A DNA stretch of 26,648 nucleotides from a virus (IMGVR_UViG_3300042924_002253:1-26648); one strand, 5' to 3'. Counted from the stretch's first letter, positions 10,701 to 26,200 are shown. Translations and numbers: made by a program. The notes: generated by a model from the letters alone, not told the origin.

Positions 10701-13700
10701 GAAATAATGCACAAGGACAACTAGGTGACGGAACAACAATTGCAAAATCTTCACCAGTATTAATTGGAACATCAACATGGACATCCGTTTCTGCTGGACA
10801 ATACTATTCAGCCGGCGTATCATCAAATGGTGCGATGTATATGTGGGGTCTGAATACTTCTGGTCAACTTGGCGACTACACAGTTTTAAATAAATCTACT
10901 CCAGCAATTCTTAAAGTTGGAACTGCAAATACTGGTTCAGTATACTTTGAAGCATCTGGAAACTTAATATTAAATACTGCAAATACAAATTCTTCTTTAG
11001 ATTTACCTGGTGATTTTACCATAGAAATGTGGATGAATTCTGCAAATCCAATAGGAGTTGCTGGCGGCACAAACAGAATGTTGCTTCAACGTTTTGGTTC
11101 TAGTCCAACAGGTTCAGACGGACAATGGGCTTTGATATTACCAGGAGGTTTGCAAATGACTGGCGGTGTTGCTTTCATTTACGGTAATAATCAAGCAGGA
11201 TCAGGGACAGGTTATGGATATATTGCTGTACAAGAACCAAATGCAACTAAGCTTTCAATGAACACTTGGTATCATATAGCCGTGACTAGAAGTGCCTCAA
11301 CGCTTCGTCTATTCATTGATGGAAATATAGTATCTACAAATAACAGCTTTAACATAAATCTAACCAACGATGAAATTTTAGATATTGGTGGTCAATACAG
11401 ATATTCAAATTGGAGTAGATATGCTGGTTTTATTTCAAACCTTAGAATTGTTAAAGGTGAAGCACTCTATACTGCAAACACAACACCACCACAAAGCCGT
11501 TTAACAGCAACCGCAAACACAGTATTGCTGGTTCTTCAAGATGATGTCGTAACAGATGCATCAAATAATAAATTTATTTTAACACAAAGTGGAATAGTTA
11601 GTGGTACTGGACAATATTTTAATCCTGGTTATAATCCATTTTTAAATGCTGCAAATAATATAAGCTCTGTTTCTTTACGCAATACACATACAGCAGCTAT
11701 TAGTAATAATACATTGTATATGTGGGGCATTAACACATCTGGTCAACTTGGTAACGGAATCACAATAACCAGATCATATCCAACCACAGTACATACAGAA
11801 TTGACTCCAATTTCATATGATTCTTGGAAAGTAATTTCAACTTCATCTTCCAATTCTCATACTATCGCAATTCGATCAATAGATTCATCTCTTTGGGCAT
11901 GGGGTAATAATCAATTTGGACAACTTGGTGATGGTACAACTGTAAGCAAATCTACACCAGTTAGAATTGGTTTTTCATCATGGACAGCTGTAAGTGCTGG
12001 AAATAATGCAACTGGTGCGGTTGCAACTGATGGTTATGCATACACATGGGGTCTTAATAATTCAGGCCAACTTGGTGATGGTACTACAGTAAATAAATCT
12101 TCTCCTGTAGTTGTTCCAAAGCCATTTATCCCTTTTTATAACAAAAATGGTATATATTTTGATGGTGTTGGTGATTACTTAACTGTAACTGCTAATAGCA
12201 ACATCGATATATTGTCAACAGATTTTACTGTTGAATGTTGGTTCAATTCTTTGGCAAATGCCGGAGTATCCAATCAGAGAACATTAGGAGCTCAATGGCG
12301 ACAAACTGCTGGTTTAACTGGTTGGATTTTAAGTTTAAGGCCAGGGAACACAATTGGATTTTCTTTTGGAGCTTTTTCAGAAGCAACTAATTTATTTAAC
12401 AGTACAACAACTTGGACAGTAGGTAAATGGTATCACGTAGCAGTAACAAGAAAGAATAGAAAGTTTTCCATGTGGATTAATGGAAGATTAGAAACCGCCG
12501 CATTTACAACTGCAACTAGAGCAACAATAGCTGTTAACACCACATTTGGAAATTATCTTAATTCTACTGGAGTATTTCCTGCTACTGGTAATGATGATTT
12601 TAATGGTTACATTGCTAACTTCCACATTGTTAAAGGAACAGCATTGTATGATGCAAGCTTTATACCATCAGCCAATGTTACATTAACAGCAAATTCAACA
12701 TTATTAATTGGTCACAGTAACACAATTACAAATGGTGCAAACACTATATTGACATTAACGACATCAGGTAATGTTTCAAATGCAAACGTTATAAGTGTTC
12801 TTGCTGATTGGTCAAATGAATATGTGTCAATAAGTTCTGGCAATAATCATATGATGGCAATTGACAAGTCTGGTGGATTATATGCGTGGGGCAATAACGT
12901 AATAGGTCAAATTGGTGATGGTACTACAATATCTAGATCAACGCCAACATATGTTACTGCTTATGCTCCAACAACATATGATTCTTGGAAAGTAATTTCA
13001 GCAAGTAATTTGGCAAACGGCCATGTGCTTGCTATTAGAAGCCTTGATAGTTCCTTGTGGGGCTGGGGCAACAATTCTTCTTTCCAGTTAGGTGATGGCA
13101 CAACTATAAGCAAATCTTCTCCAACATTATTAAATTCTTCACGTTCTTGGAAATCAGTAAGTGCAGGTAATTATCATTCGATTGCTTTAGCTGAAACTGG
13201 TGGTCTTTATGCTTGGGGTAATAATGCATTTGGTCAAATTGGTGATGGTACAACTGTACAGAAAACAAGCCCAATACAAATTGGTTCTTCTTCATGGTCA
13301 ATAGTATCTGCTGGATTTAATACAACCATAGCAACAAAATCAGATTTTGCTTTATTTGGATGGGGTTTAAACAATTCTGGTCAACTGGGTCAAGGCGATA
13401 CGATTAATCGCTCATCACCAGTACAGATTGCTGCAGCAGGTGTTTATTCATCATGGAAATCAATAGCAACAGGAAGATTCCATACACTTGCTATTAGAAA
13501 TTCAGATAGTTCTCTTTGGGCATGGGGTTATAATGGTAATGGCCAGCTTGGCGATAATACAACTGTAACAAAATCTTATCCTGTTCAAATTGATTCAGGA
13601 TCTTGGATAAGTGTTGGTGCAGGTTGGCAACATTCAATAGCTGCTGCGGCAAATGGTGCTGTGTATGCTTGGGGTTGGAATACTTCTGGTCAACTAGGAG

Positions 13701-16700
13701 ATAATACTTCAGTTTCAAAATCAACACCAACTGCAATTAGTACACTAATTAACCCTCCAAGATTATTACAAACAAATAATTCATTCTATATGAATGGTGG
13801 TGGAACTTATATAAAAATAGCTGATGATACCAACAGATCAAATACATTATATCCACAACTTCGACCAAGTGGTGATTTTACATTAGAGATGTGGGTTTAT
13901 TTAACTGCGAACAATACAAGTATTGGTTCTTTATATACATATGGATCATCCATGTATTGGCCAGGAGCTCCTACATCTAGTATTGGAATACAATTAGAAT
14001 ATAATTTAGGTAGAATTTATATTAGATCAACGGGTGCAACATATACTGCAAATTTCCCTGCAAATAGAACGTTAGAAACCAATAGATGGTATCATATTGC
14101 ATTAGTTAGAAATTCAAACACTCTGACTGCTTATGTTGATGGTCAAGCAGGAGCTTCAGTATCAAGTGCAACAGGAAGAATTGATCCTATAGCTGCAGAT
14201 TATCGTGATAGCAATACTGCAATATGGCTATCCATTAAAAGTTTTCCTGAAGGTCCGGGCGGTAGAACTTATTCTACCAATTATTATAATCAAATTAGAT
14301 TTGTATCAAATTCGGCAGTATATACAGCTAATTTTACACCATCAACATCTGAATTAGGAAATATTACAAATACACAATTATTAATTAAACAAAAAGCTAA
14401 CACATTATATGATGCGTCAAATAATTCATTTATAGTGTATAATAAAAATGGTTCAAATTTTGATAGTGGATCTGAATTTAATAATCCTGCAGGTGCAATA
14501 TTTGCAACTTCATTTTCTCCATTTAGTAACCCTCTTTCAGCAAATGCTATTTTTGTAACCGCAGGAGGAAACTCATCAGCTTACATCTCTAACACAAATA
14601 TATTGATGGTTTGGGGTGAAGGAAACTATGGACAATTAGGGACAAACACAACAATAACAAGAGTTTTACCATCAGCAGTAGGTGATGAAACTTGGAAATT
14701 TATTAATTTTGGTAAATCTGCATTGCATACTAGCGCAATTACGACCTCTAATATTATATACACATGGGGTTATAATCTTTATGGCCAACTAGGAGATGGT
14801 ACAACTGTAAGCAAATCTACGCCTGTATTAACAAATTTATCAACTTTAGAGATGTCCGAATCATCTTTAGGACAATTTCACTCTGTAGCAAAATCGGCTA
14901 ATAATAATGTGTTTGCATGGGGTTATAATGCTTTTGGTCAACTTGGAGATGGTTCGTTTACCAATAGATCCAGACCGGTTAAAATTGGAAATATATCTTT
15001 AAGAACAAATGATACAAATTATAATTCTATTAGATATTATAGTTCTCAAAAACATACTGCATACTTTAATGTAACAGGATTATCTGTAAGTCCAAGTAGA
15101 AGTTTAACAGTTGAATGTTTTGTTTATTTAAGAGATGAAGATATTGGAGGTCCTATTGTTACACATATTAATAATGGATCACTACAAAATGCTTTATTTT
15201 TATCTTTAACTTCATCTGCAAATACTTCTACTCCAAGTTCTTCCACATCGGTTGATAACTTATACCCATGGGTAGGATATTGTACAAACACAAATAGCCC
15301 CTCAACAAATTGGTTTGGCGTTGGAGCTTTAAATCCTATAACAAAAAATGTTTGGCATCATATTGCCGGCGTCTATAGTGCAAATACAGGAGAAATTTCT
15401 ATTTATGTTAATGGTACTAAAGACAATTCTATAACAAGAAACTGGGGCAGTTATACGACCGAAGCTGGACAACAATTTAGATTAGGAAGAAATGATCAAT
15501 CGAGCGTTAATGATGCAATCACTTTTAAAGGTAATATATCAAACTTTAGATTGATATTAGGAAACACTTTACCTTATTTTGGTTCTACATATACAGTACC
15601 TACTGCTCCATTAACATCTACTTCTGGCGGCAATACAATTTTTGTTTCCGCACAATCAGATAGATTTGTTGATAATTCAAATGGTACATATCAACTTATA
15701 CCAGAGATTATTTCTGGCACCTTTAATCCACAAATAACAGGTGAAAATCCATTTACAACACAATATACACCATTAAGTGATACTATGACTGTTGGTGCTG
15801 GAAGATTTTATAGTGGTGCCGTTACAAATGCTGGACAATTGTTCATGTGGGGATACAATGGTCTTGGTTACTTAGCCAACAATTCTACAGAAACATTAGA
15901 ATATCCAGAAAAAATAATTGGCACAACAACTTGGAGTAAAATATCATTAGGTGAAGAAGCAGTAACAGCCGTAGCATCAAATGGTTCTATATTTACTTGG
16001 GGTTCTGGCCAACAAGATGAATTTCAAAGCTATTTTGCAACTTATCAATTAGGTGATGGCACAAGTTATAGATCAACGCCATCAATGATTAGTTCGACAA
16101 ATGAAAATTCTGCATATTTTGTGTATGATTCATGGATTTATATAAGTGCTGGTGCCAATAACATTGCAGCCATTACAACATCCAACACTTTATATACATG
16201 GGGAAATAATATATTTGGGCAAATTGGTGATGGAACAACTCTATCTAGATCAAATCCTGCACAAATTTCTTCATCATGGAAAGCAGTGAGTGTTGGTGGT
16301 TCACATATGATTGCTGTTGATTACACCAATAAATTATATGCTTGGGGTAATAATAGATTTGGTCAAGTTGGTGACGGTTCAACAATTAACAAATCATTTC
16401 CTGTTGCTGTTGCACTTACATATAGTACATCTGTATTAAATCCTGGATTAAATAACTCAATATATTTTGATGGAAATTTAGACTATGCCGATACTAATGC
16501 AAATTCATCAACTGTAATTGGCACAAATGATTATACAATTGAAGCATGGATTTATCCTACTGCTAGTGCTAATACATTTAATCCGTCTCAATACGTATTT
16601 TCAAATGATGAATTAACTGCTAATTATAATAATAGTACAAGAAGAATTGATTTTACAAATGTAGGAGCTTTTGATATATTTGGAACAGAACAATTAACAG

Positions 16701-18859
16701 CAAACTCTTGGAATCATATTGCATTTACAAGACAAGGATCTACAGTAAAATTATATACAAATGGAATTTTAAACTCGTCAACTGGTAGTGGTTCATATAA
16801 TATTACTGGTAATTATTTTAGAATTGGTAGAAATTATTTTAGTTCAACATCTATGTTTACAGGATACATAAGCAACTTTAGATTATTAATAGGTGAAGCT
16901 TTATATACTGGAAACACTTATACTGTTCCAACTTCAGCACCAGGTTTAAATGCAAATACTGCTTTACTACTGTGTGCAGCAAATACAGCAATTGATTCTT
17001 CAAATAATAATGTTTCAGTAACATTATTTGGAAATTCAGCTGTTTCTAGTTTGCAACCATTTGGATATCCAGAAGTTACTGGCATATCAGCAGGTGCAAA
17101 TACTTCTGCCTTTGTTACACAGAATATTGTTTTAACAACAGGATTAAATACTGGATCACAGTTAGGTGATTTGTCAGCTACAAATAGAACAACTCCTGTT
17201 GTTGTAGCACAATCAGGAAATACTGTAAGTGCTGGTGCAAATAATACTTTCTATATTGCAACAAACAATTATCTATATGGTTGGGGTTCTGTCACCGCAA
17301 ATAACGGAACAATTGGTGATGGTACCACAATCAGCAAATCTTCACCCGTTTTAATTGCGACAAGAGCATCTTGGTCAATAGTGTCATCTGCAAATGATTA
17401 TACACTTGGTATATTAACTACTGGTGCATTGTATGCCTGGGGTAAAAACAATTTTGGCCAACACGGTGATGGCACAACTCTTGCAAAATCTTCAACAGTA
17501 CAAATAGGTACATCTTCATGGTCATTTGTTTCTGCTGCTGCAAATAATGTTGCAGCATTAAGTTCAAATAAAATTTTATTTACATGGGGTAGAAACAATT
17601 TTGGTCAATTAGGTGATGGAACAACAATAGATAAATCTTCACCTGTACAAATTGGTACTTCTTCTTGGACATCAGTAAGCATGAATGATCATGCTTTAGC
17701 AACAACAATTGATGGAGCATTATTTGCATGGGGTTCAAATGAATATGGTTCACTCGGTGATAATACTATAACAGACAAATCTTCACCAATTCAAATTGGT
17801 ACATCTTCATGGACTTTTGTTGATGCTGGATTTAAAGGATCATTAGCTATAGATGCACAAGGAGAATTATTTGCGTGGGGTTTAAATAATGTTGGTCAAT
17901 TAGGTTTAGGTAATTTGTCAAATAAATCTTCACCAATTCAAGTTGGTACAACATATAAAGGTTATACTCCATATTCATGGACATCTGTAAGTGTTGGTGA
18001 TTTTAATACTGTTGGTTTAACTTCAGAGGGTTCACTATATACTTGGGGTGTTGGTACTGTAGGTGTCCTTGGTGATGGTACGACAGTTTCTAAGTCTAGA
18101 CCAGTTAAAATTGGCAATTCTTCTTGGTCATTTATATCTGCTGGCCCATCACACGTTGCTGCAATTGACACAAATTCTGCGTTATATGCATGGGGATTAA
18201 ATGCTTCTGGACAATTAGGTAATGGTACCACAGAAAACAAATCTTCGCCGGTTGCTGTTATAGCACATGATAATACAGTTTCTTGGAAATATGTTTCTGC
18301 TGGATTCTCAGCAACATCTGCAATTTCTTCGAATAATTTATTATATGTTTGGGGTACCAGCACAGGCAATACTGGCATATTAGGACTAGGAACTTCCATA
18401 ACTGCCAGGTCATCCGCTGTGCAAATTGGCACTTCTAGTTGGACTATGGTTAATGCGGGCTTTGGAACAATGGTAGGTCAAACTGCATATGGTAATTTGT
18501 ATGGTTGGGGCAATAACGTAGTAGGTTTAATTAATCAATATGGTCCAGGAAACTATGGTTATGGTGCAACAAACAATGCCATATTCACACCAGAACAAAT
18601 TGGCATTTTAAATCAAATAAGTCCAACAATAATTGCGGCAGAAGGTGAAGGCACATTAGTGATGGGAGTAGATAGTTCCGGAATAACTCATGTATTGGGT
18701 GCAGGATTAAATGATAGTGGCCAATTAGGAAATGGTACCATTGTAAATAACAATTATTTGGAAGTTGTATATAAAGGAAACAATAGAGCACAACTATACT
18801 CTGGTGCAAATACAGCTTACAGAATCGGCGAACAAGGTAATACATCGATTATTATCTGA
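2..18859 (+). CDS. Giant RCC1-repeat / LamG-domain surface or fibre protein (5' end outside window)
   Basis: The frame is open from the first bases, so the start lies upstream; the in-frame TTG at 149 is internal to a repeat and is not the true start. At least 6,285 residues are encoded without a stop or frameshift. About 74 units of 49-55 residues follow the pattern L(Y/F)xWGxNxxGQLGDGTT...SPVxI..SWxxVSAGxxHTxAI, typical of RCC1 beta-propellers. Ten LamG domains of about 200-250 residues interrupt them. Each has an FDGxGDYL-like start, (D/E)FT(I/V/L)E.W, W.H(I/F/V)A..R, VNG and, in most, a SNLRIVKGTALYT-like signature. Composition is rich in Asn, Ser, Thr and Gly, with few Cys. No transmembrane helix or enzymatic motif was seen. 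It sits immediately before glycosyltransferase genes and phage genes 13-17, where T4 has gene 12 and wac, so a virion-exposed host-recognition role is inferred. The family calls are firm; the function is not proven. Confidence 0.9.
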   Translation, partial: AHIGLSTQGRLYTWGTNAVESSYSPKPLSSSNSFTTVAAGDSHFVAISTLGELYSWGKPGSSLGFGDTLGRTTPTQLGTNSWTFVAAESNHTFAISTTGALFAWGNNELGQLGDGTTIDKDSPVQIGSSSWSTVSTSHSHTAGITSTGSLFTWGYNATGQLGDGTTISKSSPIQVGSLSWTTVSAGEDHTAGIQAFGLFAWGNNVAGQIGDSSVGSKSSPTKIGSLSWGKVAAGRQFTAATLQVSGALYTWGRNNEGQLGAGTTVNRSSPVQVGLLSYTFVSADDKIGTVFTIQTTGALYGWGNSAFSIGDGYLTSRSSPVAISTPNAAYIYTWTSPLAGGFNSGGFTIDTSNLYIWGNNATGQIGDATTTSKSSPVLTNSTLSWKEVKLGATHTAALTMDGVLFTWGRNAAGQLGTGTTVNRTTPLIALPNTLQIIEGVEPVRWVNQKNWSNVYVGQDSTYVLFKDSVNEQTGLGDKLFGLGLNATGQLGDNSTLSRSSPVLVNAWDRARDRFSSFTSVSSGLNHSAALTSNNIIYTWGSNATGQLGDKSLVTRSTPVAVSNNFYYTKNSIFFRGTDTADHYDYLAPSGNNVVFDLGYNDFTIEAWFYLTVAPLTAAAGGTTYDSNRVIIQFGEVGNPYPPSDFAIYVDSNLSLKAVAISQFNPTLSTPSNFIVLNNWYHVAVTRQSNTHTLFVNGVSYGSANYPHAIRNRPNQPTIGQGHYDPGQGVPSNNGYSNWRGFISNLHIVKNQVLYSNTSSSRASFEPPKEIVKNANTILLITGDGSANNNIIDASNNQFTITRAGERFDGSFKIKPYVAGAHFNKVVAGSSHTVGLSTTKNLYTWGGNASGQLGDGTVTTRSSPVQISVNSIYELGRWNDISINNLTTAGKIYSNTTTLNTSIGYSGNNALFAWGSGVSGMVGDGFTLNRNSPVAITSLTASNTTNNSVFFDGNGDYLTVTTTANTQLRTSDFTIEAWIYYSKPNPNTTDDRDYRIVSLGGSIELYIYNSASPSDTDRIKYYNGNNDRITSSIALTSNAWSHIALSRQSSNTRMYINGSIAGYWSVDSSDINPTFIDIGVDRGTLLRNFYGYISNLRILKGTALYTTQSFTVPTTGLTAISNTVLLTCQSSTIVDNSTANNGTSYRVVTTGNAVARGFNPFTSSEWNIVTPGLANITGNTMYAWGLNAQGQVGDGTTVNKSTPVQIGSDYELRDVSFSLVSSGKNDRVAYAVGANTGNLYAWGTNVYGEIGLPFTGNSQSAKLLLPQLSQSSEILYRQSSWKHISAGTSFAVAIKADDSSLWAWGVNTVGQLGDGTTVNKSSPTLISANTKWKEVSAGLSHAIAINSSNRLYAWGLNSTGQLGDGTTINKSAPVLLSAGATYQSYSNFFNGNGDMIAVPDSASFTLGTNDFTLEYWVRHDVVPLTQVLTASQWEISSRPDTNSSIGTGISNKKLYGSLAYNNSTDQTSLMATTTIQDYTWYHFAFVRSGNTFKVYVNGVNEATLSDFAVSINDSNLSWVIGQRRNGTMRFGGHISNLRLVNGTAVYTSNFTPPTSALTAIPNTVLLTCQSSTFIDNSPYNHIVSATGTPIATNSVTPYAIANTGLEFNIVSAGASHSVALISNANTYGNFYTWGGNASGQLGGGTTVNRSTILPVPTSRIYSSWKAISVGQSHALAIRSSDGALFAWGLGSSGQLGDGTTVAKSWATKIGVSSWSVVSAGLAHSAGITTAGVLFTWGINSTGQLGDGTTINKSSPVNLGPNWSTVNAGFSHTIGTTSSNNQVYVWGGNASGQLGDNTLVNKSTPTILTGHTAIVTSAGATNSGTVAANNSLYVWGLNSSGQVGDGTTVNKSSPVRINEIYGNWSWKVIAASSNHIVAIRHDDTLWAWGLNSSGQLGDGTTINKSAPVQISIGTSWRDVAAGLIHTVAIAANNALFAWGSSSTGQLGDGTTVSKSLPVKIGTLSWTSVNVSESSTASLGITTTANLFTWGVNTVGQLGDGTTINRSSPVQIPARVGLYSWSAISSGSSHSIAIRSNDSSLWGWGLNSGGQLGDGSTINKSSPVLIDSGSWLRVAAGLNFTYAIAANNSLFAWGTNGTTYQLGDGTSVSKSRPVRLTTVVGSWTSVYASLSSTTGAGLLSNNALYMWGTNTVGQLGDGTTVNKSVPVRIADPETLISVSVGNSHTAGVLANNTVYAWGLNSTGQLGDGTTINKSRPVKVDTLESFSLVSAGIAHTLGLLTSNNTILSWGSSATGQLGDGTTINKSRPVKISSTSSFTNLSAGASHSSAVDSVGNLWLWGGNASAQLGDGTTVNKSSPVQVGYFASWSIINSGISNSSAIDTDGNLWLWGNNGAGALGDLTVVAKSHPVLLRSLNFAANGSQSWTSASIGFTHVTALQSDGSLWTWGFNGQRQLAQGPNDLVNRSSPVRVNTQSWTKVDTGVAHTLAISANNTLYAWGNNTTYQLGDNTLTNSGLPIDAKFANQLTPVNVNSSNNSLVLRGSTNYLMTTANDNLHPGQSGSEFTVECWIYPILTGFFYNVGFTSGTFANALMCQWDQSTGKFYFAQETTTSAVIAHSLTSTNTFTGNTWHHFAVVKSTDNVYRMYINGQLESQNTYTGTTTTGNIANFGGRNLAAGSLVGTQAATAYISNFRFTKSALYTANNQHPTQSLEPVANTHLLMFSADSYKDRSNNNIVFNTISGKMMLTGFSPWTTSNNSFINISAGGSHSMGVTSSNNLIVWGGGASGQLGENAILTRNIPVFVESPVHYRPNTSWSIVDAGISNSAAIDSYGNLFIWGQSPQGQLGDGTTVAKSSPVLVFTRNANTDFSGTWKDISIGGTHTAAITSANGLYVWGLNSSFQLGIGDGSTVGRSLPVLFSNNIIDVTAGSAQTLAVRENNELLGWGLNTSGQLGDNTLVNKSVPVVIGSSYTIVSSGLTTTLAISSNNSLYGWGVGTAGQIGDGTAVSKSAPVWAAGAAENYEFAEYSSWSFADASSTGNHTVGILNGTLYAWGLNSQGQLGDGTTLSRSAYNAVSTTQNQNPWYMAKVGGSHTVAIANNRTIWTWGLNSSGQLGDGTTINKSLPAQIGSQTFSTYSGFFDGSGDYLEVSNNSVLNFGTQDFTIEFWTYISSTQTNDFRFFVKRQFEDSASGTYGLVWYTTGELKFSQIINGETPQVLTSNANVTKGAWHHIAVARSVGILKIFVNGVEKGSGSWTTNVNNPYVLTIGDGKDPSNNLLKGYITNFRILKGTALYTVNFATPTSALTAIANTSLLTLNSPTLTDTSGNGLTITKFGNVTLVNNFAPSVFATGGTSYGALTIDSEYLLANTVAAGDSHTLTINDKGRLYAWGLGTSGQLGDGTAVSKSSPVLVSTESGNTQYYWSDISAGSATNYAITANTAKNHLFAWGLGTSGQLGDNAITSKSAPVIVAKGFPSGNSIEKIVTTKFTAHLLDHSGGVFSVGDLSGTAQGLIGDTTVIGKTSPVIVPTLANSLIKDIVAGNRHIAAISANNSLYIWGSNANGQLGKYNLSIPFVNSPVNVGTFAKKYYSWKSIGLGQNHILGVREDGSLWSWGNNAQGQLGDGTTIAKSSPVLIGTSTWTSVSAGQYYSAGVSSNGAMYMWGLNTSGQLGDYTVLNKSTPAILKVGTANTGSVYFEASGNLILNTANTNSSLDLPGDFTIEMWMNSANPIGVAGGTNRMLLQRFGSSPTGSDGQWALILPGGLQMTGGVAFIYGNNQAGSGTGYGYIAVQEPNATKLSMNTWYHIAVTRSASTLRLFIDGNIVSTNNSFNINLTNDEILDIGGQYRYSNWSRYAGFISNLRIVKGEALYTANTTPPQSRLTATANTVLLVLQDDVVTDASNNKFILTQSGIVSGTGQYFNPGYNPFLNAANNISSVSLRNTHTAAISNNTLYMWGINTSGQLGNGITITRSYPTTVHTELTPISYDSWKVISTSSSNSHTIAIRSIDSSLWAWGNNQFGQLGDGTTVSKSTPVRIGFSSWTAVSAGNNATGAVATDGYAYTWGLNNSGQLGDGTTVNKSSPVVVPKPFIPFYNKNGIYFDGVGDYLTVTANSNIDILSTDFTVECWFNSLANAGVSNQRTLGAQWRQTAGLTGWILSLRPGNTIGFSFGAFSEATNLFNSTTTWTVGKWYHVAVTRKNRKFSMWINGRLETAAFTTATRATIAVNTTFGNYLNSTGVFPATGNDDFNGYIANFHIVKGTALYDASFIPSANVTLTANSTLLIGHSNTITNGANTILTLTTSGNVSNANVISVLADWSNEYVSISSGNNHMMAIDKSGGLYAWGNNVIGQIGDGTTISRSTPTYVTAYAPTTYDSWKVISASNLANGHVLAIRSLDSSLWGWGNNSSFQLGDGTTISKSSPTLLNSSRSWKSVSAGNYHSIALAETGGLYAWGNNAFGQIGDGTTVQKTSPIQIGSSSWSIVSAGFNTTIATKSDFALFGWGLNNSGQLGQGDTINRSSPVQIAAAGVYSSWKSIATGRFHTLAIRNSDSSLWAWGYNGNGQLGDNTTVTKSYPVQIDSGSWISVGAGWQHSIAAAANGAVYAWGWNTSGQLGDNTSVSKSTPTAISTLINPPRLLQTNNSFYMNGGGTYIKIADDTNRSNTLYPQLRPSGDFTLEMWVYLTANNTSIGSLYTYGSSMYWPGAPTSSIGIQLEYNLGRIYIRSTGATYTANFPANRTLETNRWYHIALVRNSNTLTAYVDGQAGASVSSATGRIDPIAADYRDSNTAIWLSIKSFPEGPGGRTYSTNYYNQIRFVSNSAVYTANFTPSTSELGNITNTQLLIKQKANTLYDASNNSFIVYNKNGSNFDSGSEFNNPAGAIFATSFSPFSNPLSANAIFVTAGGNSSAYISNTNILMVWGEGNYGQLGTNTTITRVLPSAVGDETWKFINFGKSALHTSAITTSNIIYTWGYNLYGQLGDGTTVSKSTPVLTNLSTLEMSESSLGQFHSVAKSANNNVFAWGYNAFGQLGDGSFTNRSRPVKIGNISLRTNDTNYNSIRYYSSQKHTAYFNVTGLSVSPSRSLTVECFVYLRDEDIGGPIVTHINNGSLQNALFLSLTSSANTSTPSSSTSVDNLYPWVGYCTNTNSPSTNWFGVGALNPITKNVWHHIAGVYSANTGEISIYVNGTKDNSITRNWGSYTTEAGQQFRLGRNDQSSVNDAITFKGNISNFRLILGNTLPYFGSTYTVPTAPLTSTSGGNTIFVSAQSDRFVDNSNGTYQLIPEIISGTFNPQITGENPFTTQYTPLSDTMTVGAGRFYSGAVTNAGQLFMWGYNGLGYLANNSTETLEYPEKIIGTTTWSKISLGEEAVTAVASNGSIFTWGSGQQDEFQSYFATYQLGDGTSYRSTPSMISSTNENSAYFVYDSWIYISAGANNIAAITTSNTLYTWGNNIFGQIGDGTTLSRSNPAQISSSWKAVSVGGSHMIAVDYTNKLYAWGNNRFGQVGDGSTINKSFPVAVALTYSTSVLNPGLNNSIYFDGNLDYADTNANSSTVIGTNDYTIEAWIYPTASANTFNPSQYVFSNDELTANYNNSTRRIDFTNVGAFDIFGTEQLTANSWNHIAFTRQGSTVKLYTNGILNSSTGSGSYNITGNYFRIGRNYFSSTSMFTGYISNFRLLIGEALYTGNTYTVPTSAPGLNANTALLLCAANTAIDSSNNNVSVTLFGNSAVSSLQPFGYPEVTGISAGANTSAFVTQNIVLTTGLNTGSQLGDLSATNRTTPVVVAQSGNTVSAGANNTFYIATNNYLYGWGSVTANNGTIGDGTTISKSSPVLIATRASWSIVSSANDYTLGILTTGALYAWGKNNFGQHGDGTTLAKSSTVQIGTSSWSFVSAAANNVAALSSNKILFTWGRNNFGQLGDGTTIDKSSPVQIGTSSWTSVSMNDHALATTIDGALFAWGSNEYGSLGDNTITDKSSPIQIGTSSWTFVDAGFKGSLAIDAQGELFAWGLNNVGQLGLGNLSNKSSPIQVGTTYKGYTPYSWTSVSVGDFNTVGLTSEGSLYTWGVGTVGVLGDGTTVSKSRPVKIGNSSWSFISAGPSHVAAIDTNSALYAWGLNASGQLGNGTTENKSSPVAVIAHDNTVSWKYVSAGFSATSAISSNNLLYVWGTSTGNTGILGLGTSITARSSAVQIGTSSWTMVNAGFGTMVGQTAYGNLYGWGNNVVGLINQYGPGNYGYGATNNAIFTPEQIGILNQISPTIIAAEGEGTLVMGVDSSGITHVLGAGLNDSGQLGNGTIVNNNYLEVVYKGNNRAQLYSGANTAYRIGEQGNTSIII
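1709..2440 (+). other. LamG domain 1
   Basis: It begins NSIFFRG and contains DFTIEAWFYL, WYHVAVTRQ, LFVNG, GFISNLHIVKNQVLYS and a closing DASNNQFTI motif. It is one of the more diverged copies: KNQVLYS replaces KGTALYT. Boundaries are approximate. Confidence 0.8.
2441..2833 (+). repeat. RCC1 repeat block B (2 units)
   Basis: Units LYTWGGNASGQLG and LFAWGSGVSGMVG. This is the shortest spacer between LamG domains. Confidence 0.8.
2834..3480 (+). other. LamG domain 2
   Basis: NNSVFFDGNGDYL start, DFTIEAWIYY, WSHIALSRQ, YINGS, GYISNLRILKGTALYT, then VLLTCQSSTIVDNS. Boundaries are approximate. Confidence 0.85.
3481..4150 (+). repeat. RCC1 repeat block C (4 units)
   Basis: Units MYAWGLNAQGQVG, LYAWGTNVYGEIG, LWAWGVNTVGQLG and LYAWGLNSTGQLG. 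The third is the first example of the SSWK...DDSSLWAWG unit subtype. Confidence 0.8.
4151..4810 (+). other. LamG domain 3
   Basis: YSNFFNGNGDMIAV start, DFTLEYWVRH, WYHFAFVRS, VYVNGV, HISNLRLVNGTAVYT, VLLTCQSSTFIDNS. It shares a 21-nt exact DNA match with LamG 2 (3361-3381 and 4681-4701), suggesting recent duplication. Confidence 0.85.
4811..7468 (+). repeat. RCC1 repeat block D (17 units, the longest run)
   Basis: Seventeen units without a LamG insertion, about 886 residues. Within it, units recur as a triplet beginning SWKxI...IRxxDxxLWAWG near 5577 and again near 6042, 465 nt (155 codons) apart. The units LWLWGGNASAQLG, LWLWGNNGAGALG and LWTWGFNGQRQLA near the end are atypical. Confidence 0.85.
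7469..8123 (+). other. LamG domain 4
   Basis: NNSLVLRGSTNYL start, EFTVECWIYP, WHHFAVVKS, YINGQ, AYISNFRFTKSALYT, HLLMFSADSYKDRS. Boundaries are approximate. Confidence 0.8.
8124..9268 (+). repeat. RCC1 repeat block E (7 units)
   Basis: Units include LIVWGGGASGQLG, LFIWGQSPQGQLG, LYVWGLNSSFQLG, LLGWGLNTSGQLG and IWTWGLNSSGQLG. Confidence 0.85.
9269..9900 (+). other. LamG domain 5
   Basis: YSGFFDGSGDYLEV start, DFTIEFWTYI, WHHIAVARS, IFVNGVEKG, GYITNFRILKGTALYT, LLTLNSPTLTDTSGN. A canonical copy. Confidence 0.85.
9901..10930 (+). repeat. RCC1 repeat block F (6 units)
   Basis: Starts with two nearly identical units (LYAWGLGTSGQLG and LFAWGLGTSGQLG) that also match at DNA level. The third unit, near 10355-10405, is degenerate (VFSVGDLSGTAQGLIG) and lacks the core WG. 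Confidence 0.8.
10024..10234 (+). repeat. 37-nt exact direct repeat pair within block F
   Basis: Positions 10024-10060 and 10198-10234 are identical over 37 nt, at a spacing of 174 nt (58 codons). Recombination between the copies would delete or add one in-frame RCC1 unit. Confidence 0.9.
10931..11644 (+). other. LamG domain 6
   Basis: TGSVYFEASGNLIL start, DFTIEMWMNS, WYHIAVTRS, LFIDGN, GFISNLRIVKGEALYT, VTDASNNKFIL. Contains a Gly-rich loop around 11125-11225. Confidence 0.85.
11645..12142 (+). repeat. RCC1 repeat block G (3 units)
   Basis: Units LYMWGINTSGQLG, LWAWGNNQFGQLG (the IRSIDSSLWAWG subtype) and AYTWGLNNSGQLG. Confidence 0.8.
12143..12796 (+). other. LamG domain 7
   Basis: KNGIYFDGVGDYLTV start, DFTVECWFNS, WYHVAVTRK, MWINGR, GYIANFHIVKGTALYD, STLLIGHSNTITNG. 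Confidence 0.85.
12797..13774 (+). repeat. RCC1 repeat block H (6 units, two triplets)
   Basis: Two SWK...IRxxDSSLWxWG units (near 12978 and 13447, about 469 nt apart) divide the later part into groups, the second ending in VYAWGWNTSGQLG just before LamG 8. Confidence 0.8.
13775..14530 (+). other. LamG domain 8 (diverged)
   Basis: NNSFYMNGGGTYI start, DFTLEMWVYL, WYHIALVRN, AYVDGQ, then IRFVSNSAVYTANFTP instead of the usual NLRIVKGTALYT, and TLYDASNNSFIV. The longest linkers and a distinctive Gly/Ser-rich face near 13930-14000. Confidence 0.75.
14531..15019 (+). repeat. RCC1 repeat block I (3 units)
   Basis: Units LMVWGEGNYGQLG, IYTWGYNLYGQLG and VFAWGYNAFGQLG. Aromatic residues replace the usual small residues in the NxxGQ loop. 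Confidence 0.8.
15020..15766 (+). other. LamG domain 9 (most diverged)
   Basis: YNSIRYYSS replaces the FDGxGDYL start. SLTVECFVYL, WHHIAGVYS, IYVNGT, NISNFRLILGNTLPYF and RFVDNSNGTY identify the fold. Boundaries are approximate. Confidence 0.7.
15767..16450 (+). repeat. RCC1 repeat block J (4 units)
   Basis: Units LFMWGYNGLGYLA, IFTWGSGQQDEFQ (with a 9-residue loop extension before YQLGDG), LYTWGNNIFGQIG and LYAWGNNRFGQVG. Confidence 0.8.
16451..17071 (+). other. LamG domain 10
   Basis: NNSIYFDGNLDYADT start, DYTIEAWIYP, WNHIAFTRQ, LYTNGI, GYISNFRLLIGEALYT, LLLCAANTAIDSSNN. Confidence 0.85.
17072..18856 (+). repeat. RCC1 repeat block K (11 units) and C-terminal cap
   Basis: The block starts with a degenerate unit (VLTTGLNTGSQLG) and ends with two irregular ones, LYGWGNNVVGLIN and THVLGAGLNDSGQLG. 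It is followed by about 45 non-repeat residues ending GEQGNTSIII. The tail has no recognised domain and may close the last propeller. Confidence 0.8.
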
Positions 18860-18901: not shown

Positions 18902-20641
18902 ATGCATGATATTGATAATGAATTAAAATTGATGCTTGATGGTAAATTTGAAGAAGCTAGAAGTATATCAGACAAGTTACAAAATTTAGGTCCAGAAAAT
19001 ATACCAGATACCGAAGGTAAACTTGGTAATCATGAAATGTGGACACGACACAGTTTTAATCGTGGATGGTTTTTATTACAAGATGGAGATTATCAAACTG
19101 GCTGTCAGTTATTAGAATCTGGTAGATTTATTAATGTTTATGGATCACCTCCATTAAAAACTTCCGCACCGATTTACAATCCAAAAGAACACAACATAAA
19201 AGGGAAATCAATAATCATTTCTCTCGAAGGTGGTTTTGGTGATGAAATAATTCATGCAAGATTTTGTAAGTCATATAAAGATTTAGGTGCAGATAAAGTT
19301 TATTTGGCAGCTTCACCAGAAGTGGTATCTATTTTTGAAAGAATTGATGGTTGCGATGGAGTAATTTTAAGAAATGCTGCACATACAGTACAACATGATT
19401 ATTGGGTACCTGGATTTTCCGCAGGATGGATTGCAGGACACACCTTTGAAAATTTTCCAAATGAAACTTATTTAAATGCAAAACAGGAAAGTATTGATAT
19501 TTGGAAAAATGTAATCAATTCAGATAAAATTAAAGTTGGTATTCGTTGGGCAGGAAATCCAAAATTTGAACACCAACAATTTAGAAGATTTCCTCCTAAT
19601 TTTTTAACTGAGTTGGCAAAATACGATCAAGTACAATTGTACTCTTTACAAAGAGATCAAAATATTATTGATTTGCCTGAAAACATTATTGATTTGCAAC
19701 ATCTTCTAATTTCATGGGAAGATACTTTAGCTGCAATGATGAATTTAGATTTAATCATTACCTCATGTACCAGTATTGCTCATGCGGCCGCAGCCCTAGG
19801 TAAAGAAACATGGGTTATTACACCTATTCTTCCTTATCATACATGGGCTCACAAAGCACCAGAAAGTAAAACATCACCATATTATCAAACAGCTCGTCTG
19901 TTTAGACAAAAAAATCCAAAAACTTGGGATGAAACATTTCAGGAATTGTATGCAGAATTTGAGGACAAATTTAATTTACCAGTAATTGTTCATGCTTGCC
20001 ATGATAAACCAACAAAGAGATTGAATCTTGGTTGTGGTTTTTTCAAACTTGATGGATATTTAAATGTAGATGCATCAGATGTTTGTGAACCAGATATGGT
20101 AGTTGACCTTAATCAATTGCCATGGCCATTTGAAGATGACGAATTTCAACACATTGTGGCTAAAGATATTCTCGAACATCTTGGTAACGATAAAGTATCT
20201 CTTGTTGATATTGTTAAAGAAATGTACAGAGTTTCTGAAAACGGTGCGGTATGGGAAGTTCAAGTTCCACACCATAGGTGTGATCATGCTTGGGACGATC
20301 CAACACATAAACGACCAATTACACCAGGAACATTTAGATTATTTGATCAAAGGGTAACTGTTGAAGGTATTGAAATTGGAAGATCAGACAGCACTCTTTC
20401 CGTAGAAGAAGGTATCGATATTGATTTGTGTGATACAAAATACATTTATGTTGGTAAATGGATGGAAATGTTAAGAGATAAACAGATCACAGAGGATCAA
20501 TTAGAATTTGCTTTACATACACAATGTAATGTTGCAGAATCTACAATAATGCTCTTACAAACACATAAACCAGGAAGATATACAATACAAGAACTAAAAG
20601 ATGCCTATAAACGCAGAGAGGAAAAAAAGAAAGCAAAATAA
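18902..20641 (+). CDS. Fusion of GT-B glycosyltransferase (GT9/GT41-like) and SAM methyltransferase
   Basis: 579 residues. Residues 1-80 are helical and may be a degenerate TPR-like region. Residues 100-350 look like a GT-B glycosyltransferase: GGFGDEIIHARF at 110-121, KVGIRWAGNP at 211-220, SCTSIAHAAAALGKETWVI at 288-306 in the nucleotide-sugar half, and YYQTARLFRQ at 327-336. These resemble heptosyltransferase (GT9) and TPR-linked GT41-like enzymes. Residues 372-520 form a class I SAM methyltransferase with LNLGCG (motif I) at 374-379, NVD at 388-390 and WPFEDDEF...DILEHL at 408-427. The C-terminus is basic (RREEKKKAK). The start is backed by AGGAG at 18891. It is followed after 2 nt by another glycosyltransferase/methyltransferase fusion. 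Likely cytoplasmic; donor and acceptor are unknown. Candidates are the neighbouring giant fibre or host glycans. Confidence 0.8.
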   Translation: MHDIDNELKLMLDGKFEEARSISDKLQNLGPENIPDTEGKLGNHEMWTRHSFNRGWFLLQDGDYQTGCQLLESGRFINVYGSPPLKTSAPIYNPKEHNIKGKSIIISLEGGFGDEIIHARFCKSYKDLGADKVYLAASPEVVSIFERIDGCDGVILRNAAHTVQHDYWVPGFSAGWIAGHTFENFPNETYLNAKQESIDIWKNVINSDKIKVGIRWAGNPKFEHQQFRRFPPNFLTELAKYDQVQLYSLQRDQNIIDLPENIIDLQHLLISWEDTLAAMMNLDLIITSCTSIAHAAAALGKETWVITPILPYHTWAHKAPESKTSPYYQTARLFRQKNPKTWDETFQELYAEFEDKFNLPVIVHACHDKPTKRLNLGCGFFKLDGYLNVDASDVCEPDMVVDLNQLPWPFEDDEFQHIVAKDILEHLGNDKVSLVDIVKEMYRVSENGAVWEVQVPHHRCDHAWDDPTHKRPITPGTFRLFDQRVTVEGIEIGRSDSTLSVEEGIDIDLCDTKYIYVGKWMEMLRDKQITEDQLEFALHTQCNVAESTIMLLQTHKPGRYTIQELKDAYKRREEKKKAK

Positions 20642-20643
20642 TT

Positions 20644-22065
20644 ATGAATTTTTTGATAGCTCTACAAACACACAATTTATCTAACAATCAAGATAATTTT
20701 AAACCATACGATGAATTTAAATTTAAAAGATATGGATGCAACGATAAAACAGAAATAATTAAACGTTGCACTCGTTCTTTAATTAAATCCATTAATTATG
20801 CATATGAAAAATTTCCAAATTTTACATTTAAACTAAATGTATTTGATGACCATTCGAGTGAAGATGCAATAGATATATTAAAAACCAATCTTAGTTTGGC
20901 AAATTTTACAACAACATTAAAACACATTGAAGGAAAAGGCCTTATGGCTTCTCTCAATGAATGTTACGTAAATCTTCGAGATGAGGGCCAAGATTTGGTA
21001 ATGCAAGTCCAAGATGACTACCTTTTTGATGAGTTGTGTTATTATGAATTGGTTAGGCAATGGTTAAAATTTTCTCCTAGATTTGAAAAACCATTATCTC
21101 TTTTACACTATAATGATCCATACAGATATTGGGATAAGAATATTGTACCAGTAAGAATCGTACAAGGTCCAGATAGGCATTGGAGGCAAACATATCAAGT
21201 ACCTTGTACCTTTATGACACATCATAGTGTTATAACAAAAGAATGGGATTTATTTGAAAAATGTTCTACTGGTGATCCACATGATCCTAAACTAGAAGAT
21301 AACTCATTAAATAAACTATGGCAAGAAAGAGACTACGTTGTTATGTCTCCGTTACCATCTTTAGCTCTACACTTTCAATCTGAAGAAGAAAAGGATCCAT
21401 ATATCGATTGGGAATTATGGTGGAATAAACACGCAGATAATAATGTTAAATTTGAAAGAAAAGAAAATCAAGAACTTTTTGAATCAAATGTTCCAGTAGT
21501 ATTAAATGTTGGTTGTGGAAAAACAAAATTACAATCACAATCGGAACATTTTATCAATTGGAAAGAAATTCGTGTTGATGCTTTTGAAAATGAAACAGCC
21601 GACATTATTACATCAATAGTGGATTTGCAAAAAATACCAAATAATTCTGTTGATGCAGTTTGGGCATCTCATGTTGTTGAGCATAATTATTGGCATGATT
21701 TACCTAAAGTTTTCAATAGTATGTTGCGTGTATTGAAAGATACTGGTTTTGCTGTCATTAGAGTTCCAGATTTAGGTTCAATTGCACATAGAATAGAAAA
21801 TGATTTATTAGGAAAAGTTTATGATTCTTCAGCAGGAGAAGTATCAGTTATAGATATGATATATGGTCATAGAGGATTTGTAGAATCTTGGGGTGATGGT
21901 ATGTGTCACAAGACAGGTTTTACTAAAAAATCTATGGAAACAATATTAAATTCTTTGAATATAAAATCTTATATAAAGGCAGATGGTGGAGAAATTATTG
22001 CCGTTTTATTCAAAGACAAAACACCAAATGAAGCTCTAGAGGATAGTAAATTAATTATAGCATGA
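20644..22065 (+). CDS. Fusion of GT2-like glycosyltransferase and SAM methyltransferase
   Basis: 473 residues. Residues 1-265 resemble a family 2-type (GT-A fold) glycosyltransferase: FDDHSSED at 67-74 and QVQDDYLF at 121-128, where the DD pair is the likely metal/nucleotide-sugar site, then RHWRQTYQVPCTFM and SLALHFQSEEEKDPYIDW. Residues 284-455 are a class I SAM methyltransferase with VLNVGCG at 286-292, VDAF at 311-314, and SVDAVWASHVVEH at 335-347 as the motif II/III region. The N-terminal half is clearly paralogous to the next gene. The start is 2 nt after the previous stop with no strong Shine-Dalgarno (GAGAGG at 20616-20621 is too far), so translational coupling is likely. The last 4 nt overlap the next start (ATGA). 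Substrates are unknown. Confidence 0.78.
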   Translation: MNFLIALQTHNLSNNQDNFKPYDEFKFKRYGCNDKTEIIKRCTRSLIKSINYAYEKFPNFTFKLNVFDDHSSEDAIDILKTNLSLANFTTTLKHIEGKGLMASLNECYVNLRDEGQDLVMQVQDDYLFDELCYYELVRQWLKFSPRFEKPLSLLHYNDPYRYWDKNIVPVRIVQGPDRHWRQTYQVPCTFMTHHSVITKEWDLFEKCSTGDPHDPKLEDNSLNKLWQERDYVVMSPLPSLALHFQSEEEKDPYIDWELWWNKHADNNVKFERKENQELFESNVPVVLNVGCGKTKLQSQSEHFINWKEIRVDAFENETADIITSIVDLQKIPNNSVDAVWASHVVEHNYWHDLPKVFNSMLRVLKDTGFAVIRVPDLGSIAHRIENDLLGKVYDSSAGEVSVIDMIYGHRGFVESWGDGMCHKTGFTKKSMETILNSLNIKSYIKADGGEIIAVLFKDKTPNEALEDSKLIIA

Positions 22066-22841
22066 AAATAGAAATAATATTAAGAACACATGACCAGTCA
22101 AATGTACATACTGATAGACAAAGGTATTGTAATAAAAATAAAAAAGAATTAATTCTTGGTTGTTTTAAATCTTTAATAAATTCTGCCAATTTAGTTAAAA
22201 ACCATTTAATATCTATAAAAGTAATAGATGACCATAGTTCTTTAGAATTTTTACAAGAATTGAATGAGATTAGAAAAACTAGTTTTTATCCTTCTACGGT
22301 CATAAATTTGAATGAAAAAGGTTATAACCATTCGGCTTTAAGGCAATTTCAAGAATGTAGAGATTCACAATCGGATTTGATTTATTCGGTAGAAGATGAC
22401 TATTTACATTGTTCTTCAGCCTTAACAGAAATGATAGACTGTTTTGAATTGTTTGAGAAAAATTCAGGACAAGACATTTGCATTTATCCCTTTGATATGC
22501 CAGATGACTATGTTCCACCACATATGAATCCTTGTTATGTTGTTCATGGTACCTGTAGACATTGGAAAACAGGAATATGGACAACAAACACTTTTATGGT
22601 GAGACCTAAAATATTAAAAGAACATTGGAGTGTTTTTGAAAAATTGGCCAAAGAATATTCTCCGGATTACTCTGACCCAAATAAACAATATGTGCATGAA
22701 GGAAACACAATATGTAATGTTTGGAAAAACCATACTTTAAGATTCAGTCCCATACAAAGTTTAGCTTTACATATGCAATTTGACACTCAAAAAGACCCCT
22801 ACATACCTTGGGAAACATGGTGGGATCAGTATACCAAGTGA
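22062..22841 (+). CDS. GT2-like glycosyltransferase, free-standing paralogue of the preceding gene's N-terminal domain
   Basis: 259 residues. It matches the N-terminal half of the upstream gene motif by motif: RTHDQSN at 8-14, IDDHSS at 55-60, SVEDDYLH at 109-116, CRHWK at 165-169, NTFMV at 176-180, SLALHMQ at 233-239 and KDPYIPWETWW at 244-254. The acidic DD pairs fit a GT-A fold nucleotide-sugar site. It has no methyltransferase domain and ends where the other protein's second domain begins. ATGA overlap with the upstream gene indicates coupled translation. The family assignment rests on motifs; the fold should be checked with a profile search. Substrate unknown. Confidence 0.72.
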   Translation: MKIEIILRTHDQSNVHTDRQRYCNKNKKELILGCFKSLINSANLVKNHLISIKVIDDHSSLEFLQELNEIRKTSFYPSTVINLNEKGYNHSALRQFQECRDSQSDLIYSVEDDYLHCSSALTEMIDCFELFEKNSGQDICIYPFDMPDDYVPPHMNPCYVVHGTCRHWKTGIWTTNTFMVRPKILKEHWSVFEKLAKEYSPDYSDPNKQYVHEGNTICNVWKNHTLRFSPIQSLALHMQFDTQKDPYIPWETWWDQYTK

Positions 22842-22848
22842 TTTAACA

Positions 22849-22868
22849 ATAGGTATAAATACACCTAT
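22849..22868. repeat. Inverted repeat enclosing the late promoter
   Basis: ATAGGT (22849-22854) and ACCTAT (22863-22868) are perfect 6-bp inverted arms around 8 nt, with the late-promoter box between and partly overlapping them. The inner GTATAAATAC (22853-22862) is itself nearly symmetric. Confidence 0.6.
22854..22861 (+). promoter_or_regulatory. T4-type late promoter TATAAATA upstream of gene 13
   Basis: An exact match to the T4 late -10 box TATAAATA, which is read by RNA polymerase with phage late sigma and clamp-loaded coactivator factors. It lies 21 nt before the gene 13 start, so the leader would be short (about 16 nt) and carries AGGAG at 22872-22876, 6 nt before the ATG. It is the only exact intergenic match I noticed and probably drives genes 13 to 17. 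Confidence 0.8.
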
Positions 22869-22882
22869 ATTAGGAGATCACT

Positions 22883-23656
22883 ATGCCTGCTGTTACTGAC
22901 AGAAAAACCTTCAAAGATTATTGTCTGCGTAGACTAGGATTCCCGGTAATTGAGATTAATGTCGATGACGACCAAATAGAGGATCGTATTGATGATGCAC
23001 TTCAATACTGGCAAGATTATCATTTTGATGGTCTACAAAAAATCTACTATGTCCGCAGATTAACTTCTGGAGATGTCCAACAGAAATATTTGGATATGAG
23101 CCAAGTTCGAGACAGTTCAAATAATAATTTGGATGTCGTTGGTGTTACCAGAATATTTCCAATCTACGATTCGCTTGCCACTTTTAATATGTTTGACCTG
23201 AGATACCAACTCCGACTGAATGAGTTGTATGACTTCACCTCAGCGTCCTACGTGAATTATACTTTGACCATGCAACACCTTAGATCTCTAGAGTTGATGT
23301 TCTCTGGAGAGACTCCTATTCGTTTCCAGAGACATATGCAGAAACTCTTTATCGAATGGTCTTGGGGAACTTCACAGGCACCAGTAGGAATGGTAGTGGT
23401 ATCAGAGTGTTATGCCAATATTGACCCTTCCGTTTATAATAGAGTATGGAATGACCGTTGGATGAAAGAGTACACAACGGCACTAATCAAAAGAACTTGG
23501 GGAAATAACCTCAAAAAATTCTCCGGCTTACAATTGCCAGGTGGTGTCACAATGAACGGCGATAAAATCTATGAAGAAGCCGTTGGTGAAATAGAAAAAC
23601 TAGAAACAGAAATGCAATCCGAATATGGTGCACCGCTAGAATGGTTTATGAATTAA
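22883..23656 (+). CDS. 13: Neck protein, T4 gp13 homologue
   Basis: 257 residues, compared with about 309 in T4. It forms the neck (head-completion/connector region) with gp14, below the portal, so that tails can join filled heads. The N-terminal region FKDYCLRRLGFPVIEINV with DDDQIEDRIDDALQYW is characteristic of T4-like gp13, and the gene is directly followed by genes 14, 15 and 16 homologues, which makes the call strong. The start is fixed by AGGAG at 22872-22876 and by the late promoter just upstream. By eye the gene is richer in G+C (about 42% in lines sampled) than its neighbours (about 27-35%) and uses more C-ending codons. It ends directly against the next ATG. Confidence 0.9.
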   Translation: MPAVTDRKTFKDYCLRRLGFPVIEINVDDDQIEDRIDDALQYWQDYHFDGLQKIYYVRRLTSGDVQQKYLDMSQVRDSSNNNLDVVGVTRIFPIYDSLATFNMFDLRYQLRLNELYDFTSASYVNYTLTMQHLRSLELMFSGETPIRFQRHMQKLFIEWSWGTSQAPVGMVVVSECYANIDPSVYNRVWNDRWMKEYTTALIKRTWGNNLKKFSGLQLPGGVTMNGDKIYEEAVGEIEKLETEMQSEYGAPLEWFMN

Positions 23657-25624: not shown

Positions 25625-26200
25625 ATGTCAAAGACCTTACAATTTAGAAGATATCATAGTTCAAATACCGATACAATTGTTGCATCCAATGGTGAAATTA
25701 TTGTTGATCTTACCAGAAAAACACTCTCAGTTCATGACGGTGTAACTGCTGGAGGTTCCAGACTTGCAACAGAATTGTATGTAAATACCGCAGTATCTAA
25801 TGCAACAACCATTTTACTTGGTGGTGCTCCTGGTGCATTAGACACATTGAAAGAATTAGCAGATGCAATCAGATTAGATCCACAATTTGGTAATACTATT
25901 CTTGCGTTTGCAAATACAAAAGAAAGTATTGCTAATGTTAGCAATTCAATTAATACTGTAACTGCATTGGCACAAGCTGCATTTAATTATGCAAACACTA
26001 TACCTCTTATAGATTCTACAGCTAGAAATATAGGCAACTCTGCTTTTATACACGCAAATGCAGCTTACAATGCGGCAAATTCTTTTACAATAACAGTTAA
26101 TGGTCCTTATGTTGACGATGCAGATGCGGCCAATAATTCTGTTGCCATAGGATCGTTGTATTATGTTTCAGGTGGTAGTGTAAAAGTAAGGTTAACATAA
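25625..26200 (+). CDS. Small tail-fibre-like protein with Mtd-type N-terminus
   Basis: 191 residues. Residues 1-48 (LQFRRYHSSN, GEIIVDLTRKTLSVHDG) match the beta-hairpin head found at the N-terminus of the Mtd tropism determinant and many phage fibre proteins. Residues 64-84 hold LGGAPGALDTLKELADAI, a segment common in tail fibres. Residues 115-155 have Ala/Asn repeats (AQAAFNYANT, SAFIHANAAYNAAN) like the shaft repeats of marine T4-like fibres. The end is a short beta tip, LYYVSGGSVKVRLT. It probably forms a small trimeric fibre or an anchor for another fibre. It lies 1 nt after gene 15 and separates it from gene 16, which are adjacent in T4. It may be a virion decoration. No enzymatic motif is visible. 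Confidence 0.7.
   Translation: MSKTLQFRRYHSSNTDTIVASNGEIIVDLTRKTLSVHDGVTAGGSRLATELYVNTAVSNATTILLGGAPGALDTLKELADAIRLDPQFGNTILAFANTKESIANVSNSINTVTALAQAAFNYANTIPLIDSTARNIGNSAFIHANAAYNAANSFTITVNGPYVDDADAANNSVAIGSLYYVSGGSVKVRLT

Follow-up and report, generated by a model that had tools for sequence, protein, structure and literature searches.

The 26,648-nucleotide viral DNA fragment IMGVR_UViG_3300042924_002253:1-26648 (hereafter the window, i. e., the whole stretch that was analysed) derives from a T4-like phage and carries a giant gene for an RCC1-repeat fibre followed by three genes, here called A, B, and C, for glycosyltransferases (GTs) and methyltransferases. We read this arrangement as a self-contained fibre cassette, in which a giant fibre built of RCC1 propellers is encoded together with its dedicated glycosylating and capping enzymes (rough probability 0.75). 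A can be called with confidence a partner dedicated to RCC1-repeat proteins, and judging from gene content and context we are fairly sure that it glycosylates them. Pairs of fibre and enzyme are found across phages and in bacteria from several phyla, which indicates a protein-glycosylation system not described so far; among the open-licence literature searched, no paper was found on an RCC1–glycosyltransferase pairing or on an RCC1-modifying enzyme.

Viral relatives of A were fetched by A alone, with RCC1 ignored, which yielded 80 sequences, 74 of them with upstream sequence. An RCC1 gene was present in 71 of these 74 loci, and in 62 of the 74 it lay at most 200 bases upstream of A on the same strand (44 of 51 viral loci after collapse at 95 % identity). 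For the reverse search, a nucleotide pattern of the RCC1 repeat served to pick viral contigs, with A ignored: 30 of the 50 RCC1 contigs outside the A set carried an A relative, in which the GT half and the methyltransferase half were often encoded by two genes. RCC1 gene and A relative also stand close together in each of BUCT-ZZ01 (a Synechococcus phage), S-SRM01, and AG-345-E08. A stays behind the RCC1 gene even where other neighbours change, and this includes bacterial chromosomes.

In the window, A, B, and C all lie on the + strand (18902–22841) between the giant RCC1/LamG fibre frame and gp13; 42 bases separate the fibre frame from A and 2 separate A from B, B and C overlap by 4 bases, and gp13 (22883) follows C after 41 bases. 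A first-pass annotation had described two different GT folds, each fused to an S-adenosylmethionine (SAM) methyltransferase, plus a free GT2 paralogue in nearly gapless order, and both domains and coordinates bear this out:

2–18859, + strand: giant RCC1-repeat/LamG fibre gene, the proposed substrate, open at its 5′ end (6,285 amino acids (aa); PF00415, PF25390, PF13385)
18902–20641, + strand: gene A, helical N-terminus, GT-B fold of GT9-like type, and class I SAM methyltransferase (579 aa; AlphaFold2 model, structural matches, RCC1 linkage)
19184–19978, + strand: GT9-like domain of A (Z 17–18.8 to GT9 enzymes; D114 codon at 19241–19243)
20009–20581, + strand: methyltransferase domain of A (3l8d Z 13.4; phrog_6636 E 2e-12)
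20644–22065, + strand: gene B, GT-A/GT2-like domain (residues ~1–262) and class I SAM methyltransferase (~280–450; 473 aa; model, Foldseek, PF08241)
22062–22841, + strand: gene C, GT2 paralogue of the first half of B (259 aa; PF00535 at cut-off; alignment)
22842–22882, + strand: right edge of the exchangeable block (identity onset at 22849/22855; T4-type late promoter consensus TATAAATA at 22854–22861)
22883–23656, + strand: gp13 neck gene, first of the conserved flank and outside the cassette (phrog_211 E 2e-40)

Within the fibre frame, a stretch of 1,067 aa matches PF00415 at E 1e-139; the LamG domains correspond to PF13385.

T4-like relatives picked by gp15 only, 36 of which had enough upstream sequence, place the cassette in a phage-to-phage comparison. 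A was found in five of the six loci with RCC1 and in none of the 30 without, and the closely related phage L487 (96.6 % DNA identity to the window from base 22849, inside the C–gp13 gap) instead has a 1,290-aa fibre upstream of gp13, with A, B, and C all absent; the cassette is thus not equally frequent in phages that lack the giant gene, a possibility that the first-pass annotation had raised against itself. The same replacement pattern recurs in L493, L495, and L497, with an identity of ~91.7 % from 22855. Hence, the fibre and the three enzyme genes move as a block. This block ends at the late promoter consensus, the window's only copy, located where identity to the fibre-swapped relatives begins; by number alone, the consensus is no more frequent than expected by chance.

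Homologues of the GT half of A also occur in bacterial bins assigned by their titles to Bdellovibrionales/Bdellovibrionaceae, a Patescibacteria type, Planctomycetota, and Pseudomonadales, and most of those with at least 34 % identity stand beside or near RCC1 genes; the close bacterial relatives of A come from four phyla. One of the loci (L182) is probably a phage contig inside a bacterial bin, because gp13–gp16 lie on it. Scores against an A profile are nearly bimodal and separate a core (>320 bits) from a wider tetratricopeptide repeat (TPR)/GT9-like superfamily (155–226 bits), with an imperfect gap, as two RCC1-linked phage relatives fall below the 250-bit line, one of them at 235. In the tree, core and superfamily form separate groups (support 0.855), and within the bacterial core the phage sequences cluster (weak support of 0.145 for all, 0.939 for all but one). 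In the genomes G053 (5 Mb), G060 (2.3 Mb), and G062 (7.2 Mb), the RCC1 repeats among the matches listed are all at one site beside A. A sample of 192 genomes from the phylum of G053 contained RCC1 in 113 and an A match in 10, all 10 with RCC1; five of its seven strong A genomes have A directly adjoining RCC1, one has its A match on a 4.4-kb contig, and the remaining one is G214 (see below). In the phylum of G051 (287 genomes), 18 have RCC1 and the sole A genome has A beside it, while 398 genomes of the phylum of G060 include one core member (381 bits) and 105 of the superfamily only (at most 221 bits). Core members in the phylum of G062 are G062 and G696 only, and the latter, a Planctomycetota genome found blind, has an RCC1 gene with 7 repeats directly upstream of A. 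RCC1 was found at none of 19 superfamily loci (9–16 kb read around each), which led us to reject the RCC1 link as a general trait of TPR/GT9-like proteins; likewise, bacterial loci and fibre-swapped relatives reject the linkage as mere T4-like synteny.

These distributions also bear on the alternative offered by the first-pass annotation, remodelling of the host surface to block superinfection. In this reading, the enzymes would alter the surface polysaccharide of the host during infection, and the fibre adjacency would reflect late-gene clustering. GT9, GT25, GT2, and Hld genes are indeed typical of lipopolysaccharide (LPS) or capsule synthesis, and serotype-altering phage glycosyltransferases are known (cited in PMC12619734). 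However, A goes with RCC1 rather than with T4-like gene order, as it is co-lost in near-identical phages, follows RCC1 despite changed neighbours, and is paired with it in bacterial genomes, and the related superfamily lacks the link. Host-surface remodelling thus found no support here, and we regard this explanation as improbable.

A sequence search of solved structures gave nothing useful for A or B, and folds were therefore used instead. The AlphaFold2 model of A is confident (mean predicted local distance difference test score 92.9, predicted template modelling score 0.87) and comprises a helical N-terminus (~residues 1–95, with 1–76 helical in the model), a GT-B domain of GT9 type (residues 95–359; 3tov Z 18.8, WaaF 1psw 18.5, TibC 4rap 17.0, WaaC 17.0, with matches spanning ~230–250 residues), and a region matching class I SAM methyltransferases (residues 370–560, Z ~13). 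Matches to PF01075, the Pfam GT9 family, were sub-threshold only (7 of 44 members, best E 0.045), and a comparison of 44 A members with GT41 gave no PF13844 match and a single weak TPR match, the N-terminus being helical in the model; that no GT41 enzyme appeared among the structural matches carries no weight here. Full-length A is conserved at 48–76 % identity across aligned viral relatives and is thus not a product of chance; some relatives carry its two halves as separate genes, which sets the domain boundary near residue 365. The expected catalytic Asp, as judged by motif position in WaaC and TibC and not by residue-level superposition, is D114, present in 96 of 96 core and 21 of 22 superfamily sequences. 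It belongs to a superfamily-wide framework (E109, G111, G113, D114, R120, Q250, T290, H294, and W315) that is invariant or nearly so. A second set of positions (W168, R215, FEH 222–224, W272, C289, and Y312) is specific to the core and missing as a signature from the wider superfamily; C289 is also the only invariant cysteine of the GT half (C68 occurs in 58 %). Besides A itself, about 20 phage loci encode a second, GT-only paralogue of A (~395–404 aa, 21–29 % identical; e. g., L036:8936–10126, L054:2392–3579, and L060:4260–5474).

In the model of B, a GT-A/GT2-like domain with SpsA and K4CP among its best matches is followed by a class I methyltransferase (PF08241, E 3e-7). C is ~30 % identical to the GT half of B and scores 23.5 bits against PF00535 (cut-off 23.3), and the Asp-Asp metal motif of the B/C type (D124, D125) is invariant in 22 aligned sequences. 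Since both types occur without A, we rejected an obligatory core that would include B and C. Both are accessory, because GT2 genes of this type are also found in loci that lack RCC1 and A altogether (11 of 46 long loci). The first-pass annotation had called the arrangement unusual; this does not apply to A, which is common and conserved. At L056:2104–3417 and L084:12380–13753, a C-like GT2 is fused to a methyltransferase of a type unlike that of B and represents an independent GT–methyltransferase fusion.

The methyltransferase domains might also modify side chains or termini of the fibre protein, sugar and methyl then being independent modifications of RCC1. The methyl acceptor is not given by the fold matches, and the methyltransferase half is a separate gene in relatives; recurrent fusion to a glycosyltransferase (A, B, and the differing methyltransferase type of L056 and L084) nevertheless favours a sugar acceptor, so that methylation of the protein seems unlikely to us. 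Least credible is that A helps RCC1 fibres to fold or assemble and has kept the glycosyltransferase fold but lost sugar transfer: fibre chaperones also show strict pairing and the core-specific residues could form a protein-binding face, but the GT framework shared with the superfamily is retained and A is accompanied by further glycosyltransferase, methyltransferase, and sugar-nucleotide genes.

Returning to A as a glycosyltransferase of RCC1 proteins, a candidate acceptor lies in the repeats themselves. The motif [KR][ST][ST]P follows GQLG in 62 % (phage) and 48 % (bacterial) of A-linked RCC1 repeats as compared to 17 %, 4 %, 2 %, and 12 % in four sets of unlinked repeats, and the window fibre has 39 such sites for 50 repeat anchors (0.5 expected from shuffles). 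From this we infer that a Ser-Ser-Pro loop may serve as the acceptor site. In Bdellovibrionota, an RRx[FL][LIV] pattern, defined for this group only and after viewing the sequences, occurs near the N-terminus in 13 of 13 Cys-free RCC1 proteins of A-bearing genomes, in none of 21 Cys-type RCC1 proteins (mostly with lipoboxes), and in none of 191 other frames; a stricter pattern for twin-arginine translocation (Tat) is present in 6 of 13 linked RCC1 proteins across phyla. Tat exports folded proteins, so that Tat-type signals agree with a propeller that is modified in the cytoplasm in its folded state. The RCC1 proteins of Bdellovibrionota themselves fall into two subfamilies, one Cys-type with lipoprotein-like signals (L272–L289, L219–L238), the other Cys-free with Tat-type signals and tracking A (L185, L188, L190, L213–L215).

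As to the donor, HldE- and/or HldD-like genes, fused or split and on either strand, lie within 10 kb of A in 27 of the 80 phage loci (e. g., L070:15162–17418 and L071:7502–9991, with HldE and HldD just upstream of A in L071); none were found in the gp15-picked T4-like loci. Together with the fold match of A to ADP-heptose transferases, TibC included, this makes heptose a plausible candidate for the sugar transferred by A. GT25 (a cluster present in 63 of the 80 loci), GT2, and methyltransferases of several types also often accompany A, which is consistent with a first step that is conserved and an outer glycan that varies.

Combining these observations, the fibre would be modified in the infected cell before assembly. 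A would initiate by moving a sugar, most likely heptose from a nucleotide-heptose donor, with its GT9-like domain onto Ser/Thr of the RCC1 blades, the most likely target being the repeated [KR][ST][ST]P loop. The transferred sugar would be capped by the methyltransferase part of A. B and C might then add and methylate further sugars, and this outer part would differ among phages (GT25, GT2, and several methyltransferase types). That a phage glycosylates and methyl-caps its own fibre, as the first-pass annotation had proposed, is strongly supported by genomic context. A more specific version, in which phages and bacteria of several phyla share a system for folded RCC1 propellers with heptose on [KR]-S-S-P and a methyl cap, some phages supplying nucleotide-heptose and some bacteria exporting the product via Tat, is offered tentatively and is in our judgement somewhat short of an even chance.

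Several points, in addition to the post hoc arginine pattern and the loci with B/C-type genes alone, weigh against the cassette as a dedicated RCC1-modifying system. Three of the 74 viral A loci have no RCC1 gene, and the core member G214 has none within the 18 kb read. Compared with bacterial RCC1 proteins that are Cys-free but unlinked, the enrichment of the motif is less pronounced (p 0.02), so that [KR][ST][ST]P could in part be the marker of an RCC1 subfamily. Two thirds of the A loci, and the window too, lack Hld genes, and most HldD matches lie below the curated cut-off; the exact nucleotide sugar may therefore be one other than nucleotide-heptose. In the non-RCC1 cases, A stands behind other large fibres, namely a fibre with a DUF6242 match (L009:3–2783 and L010) or a Gly-rich one (L083), and fibres of the DUF6242 type may constitute another class of substrate.

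Phages and bacteria commonly have fibres and surface proteins built of RCC1 repeats, and the A–RCC1 pairing may serve as a genomic predictor of which of these are glycosylated. Through it, the fibres with which phages recognise their hosts would be connected with methyl-capped glycans, and it suggests a reason for the presence of heptose-nucleotide genes in some phages, and with Synechococcus phage BUCT-ZZ01 an isolate carrying the pairing is open to direct study.

Regarding the surroundings of the cassette, gp13 is followed in the window by gp14 (PF11649), gp15 (PF16724), and the small terminase (PF11053). A 191-aa fibre-like open reading frame with an Mtd_N match (window 25625–26200) lies between gp15 and the small terminase, and the same slot holds a 1,407-aa fibre in the relative L495, which looks like a second exchangeable fibre site. 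In many loci (L027, L070, and others), genes for the large and small subunits of ribonucleotide reductase stand just 3′ of the cassette. Scans for sigma-70 promoters and terminators gave no more matches than chance, and a tRNA search found none.

Among known systems, the closest parallel is TibC, which heptosylates TibA, a repeat adhesin of the same operon (PMC4358343, PMC3835316). TibC and AAH (the BAHT type) share with A the GT-B GT9-like fold (Z 17.0 for TibC), a catalytic Asp expected at the same position, and, as a likeness of position only, a gene next to that of a repeat-built adhesin. They differ in that the N-terminus of A is helical and that of TibC a β-barrel, the four-Cys iron finger is absent from A, A has a fused methyltransferase, identity is ~11 %, and the proposed substrate of A is an RCC1 propeller instead of an autotransporter β-helix. 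The ADP-heptose-dependent LPS heptosyltransferases WaaC and WaaF likewise resemble A in fold (Z 17–18.5) and GD motif, whereas identity is ~10–14 %, the Pfam GT9 match of A stays sub-threshold, and its partner gene encodes a protein fibre. The wider TPR/GT9-like superfamily of Pseudomonadota and Planctomycetota has the GT framework in common with A but neither a nearby RCC1 gene nor the core signature. Finally, mycobacteriophage glycosyltransferases decorate virion proteins (Freeman 2023, as cited in PMC12619734) and are phage-encoded like those of the cassette; their targets are the capsid and the C-termini of the tail tube, whereas here a repeat fibre appears with a fixed partner enzyme that is also present in bacteria.

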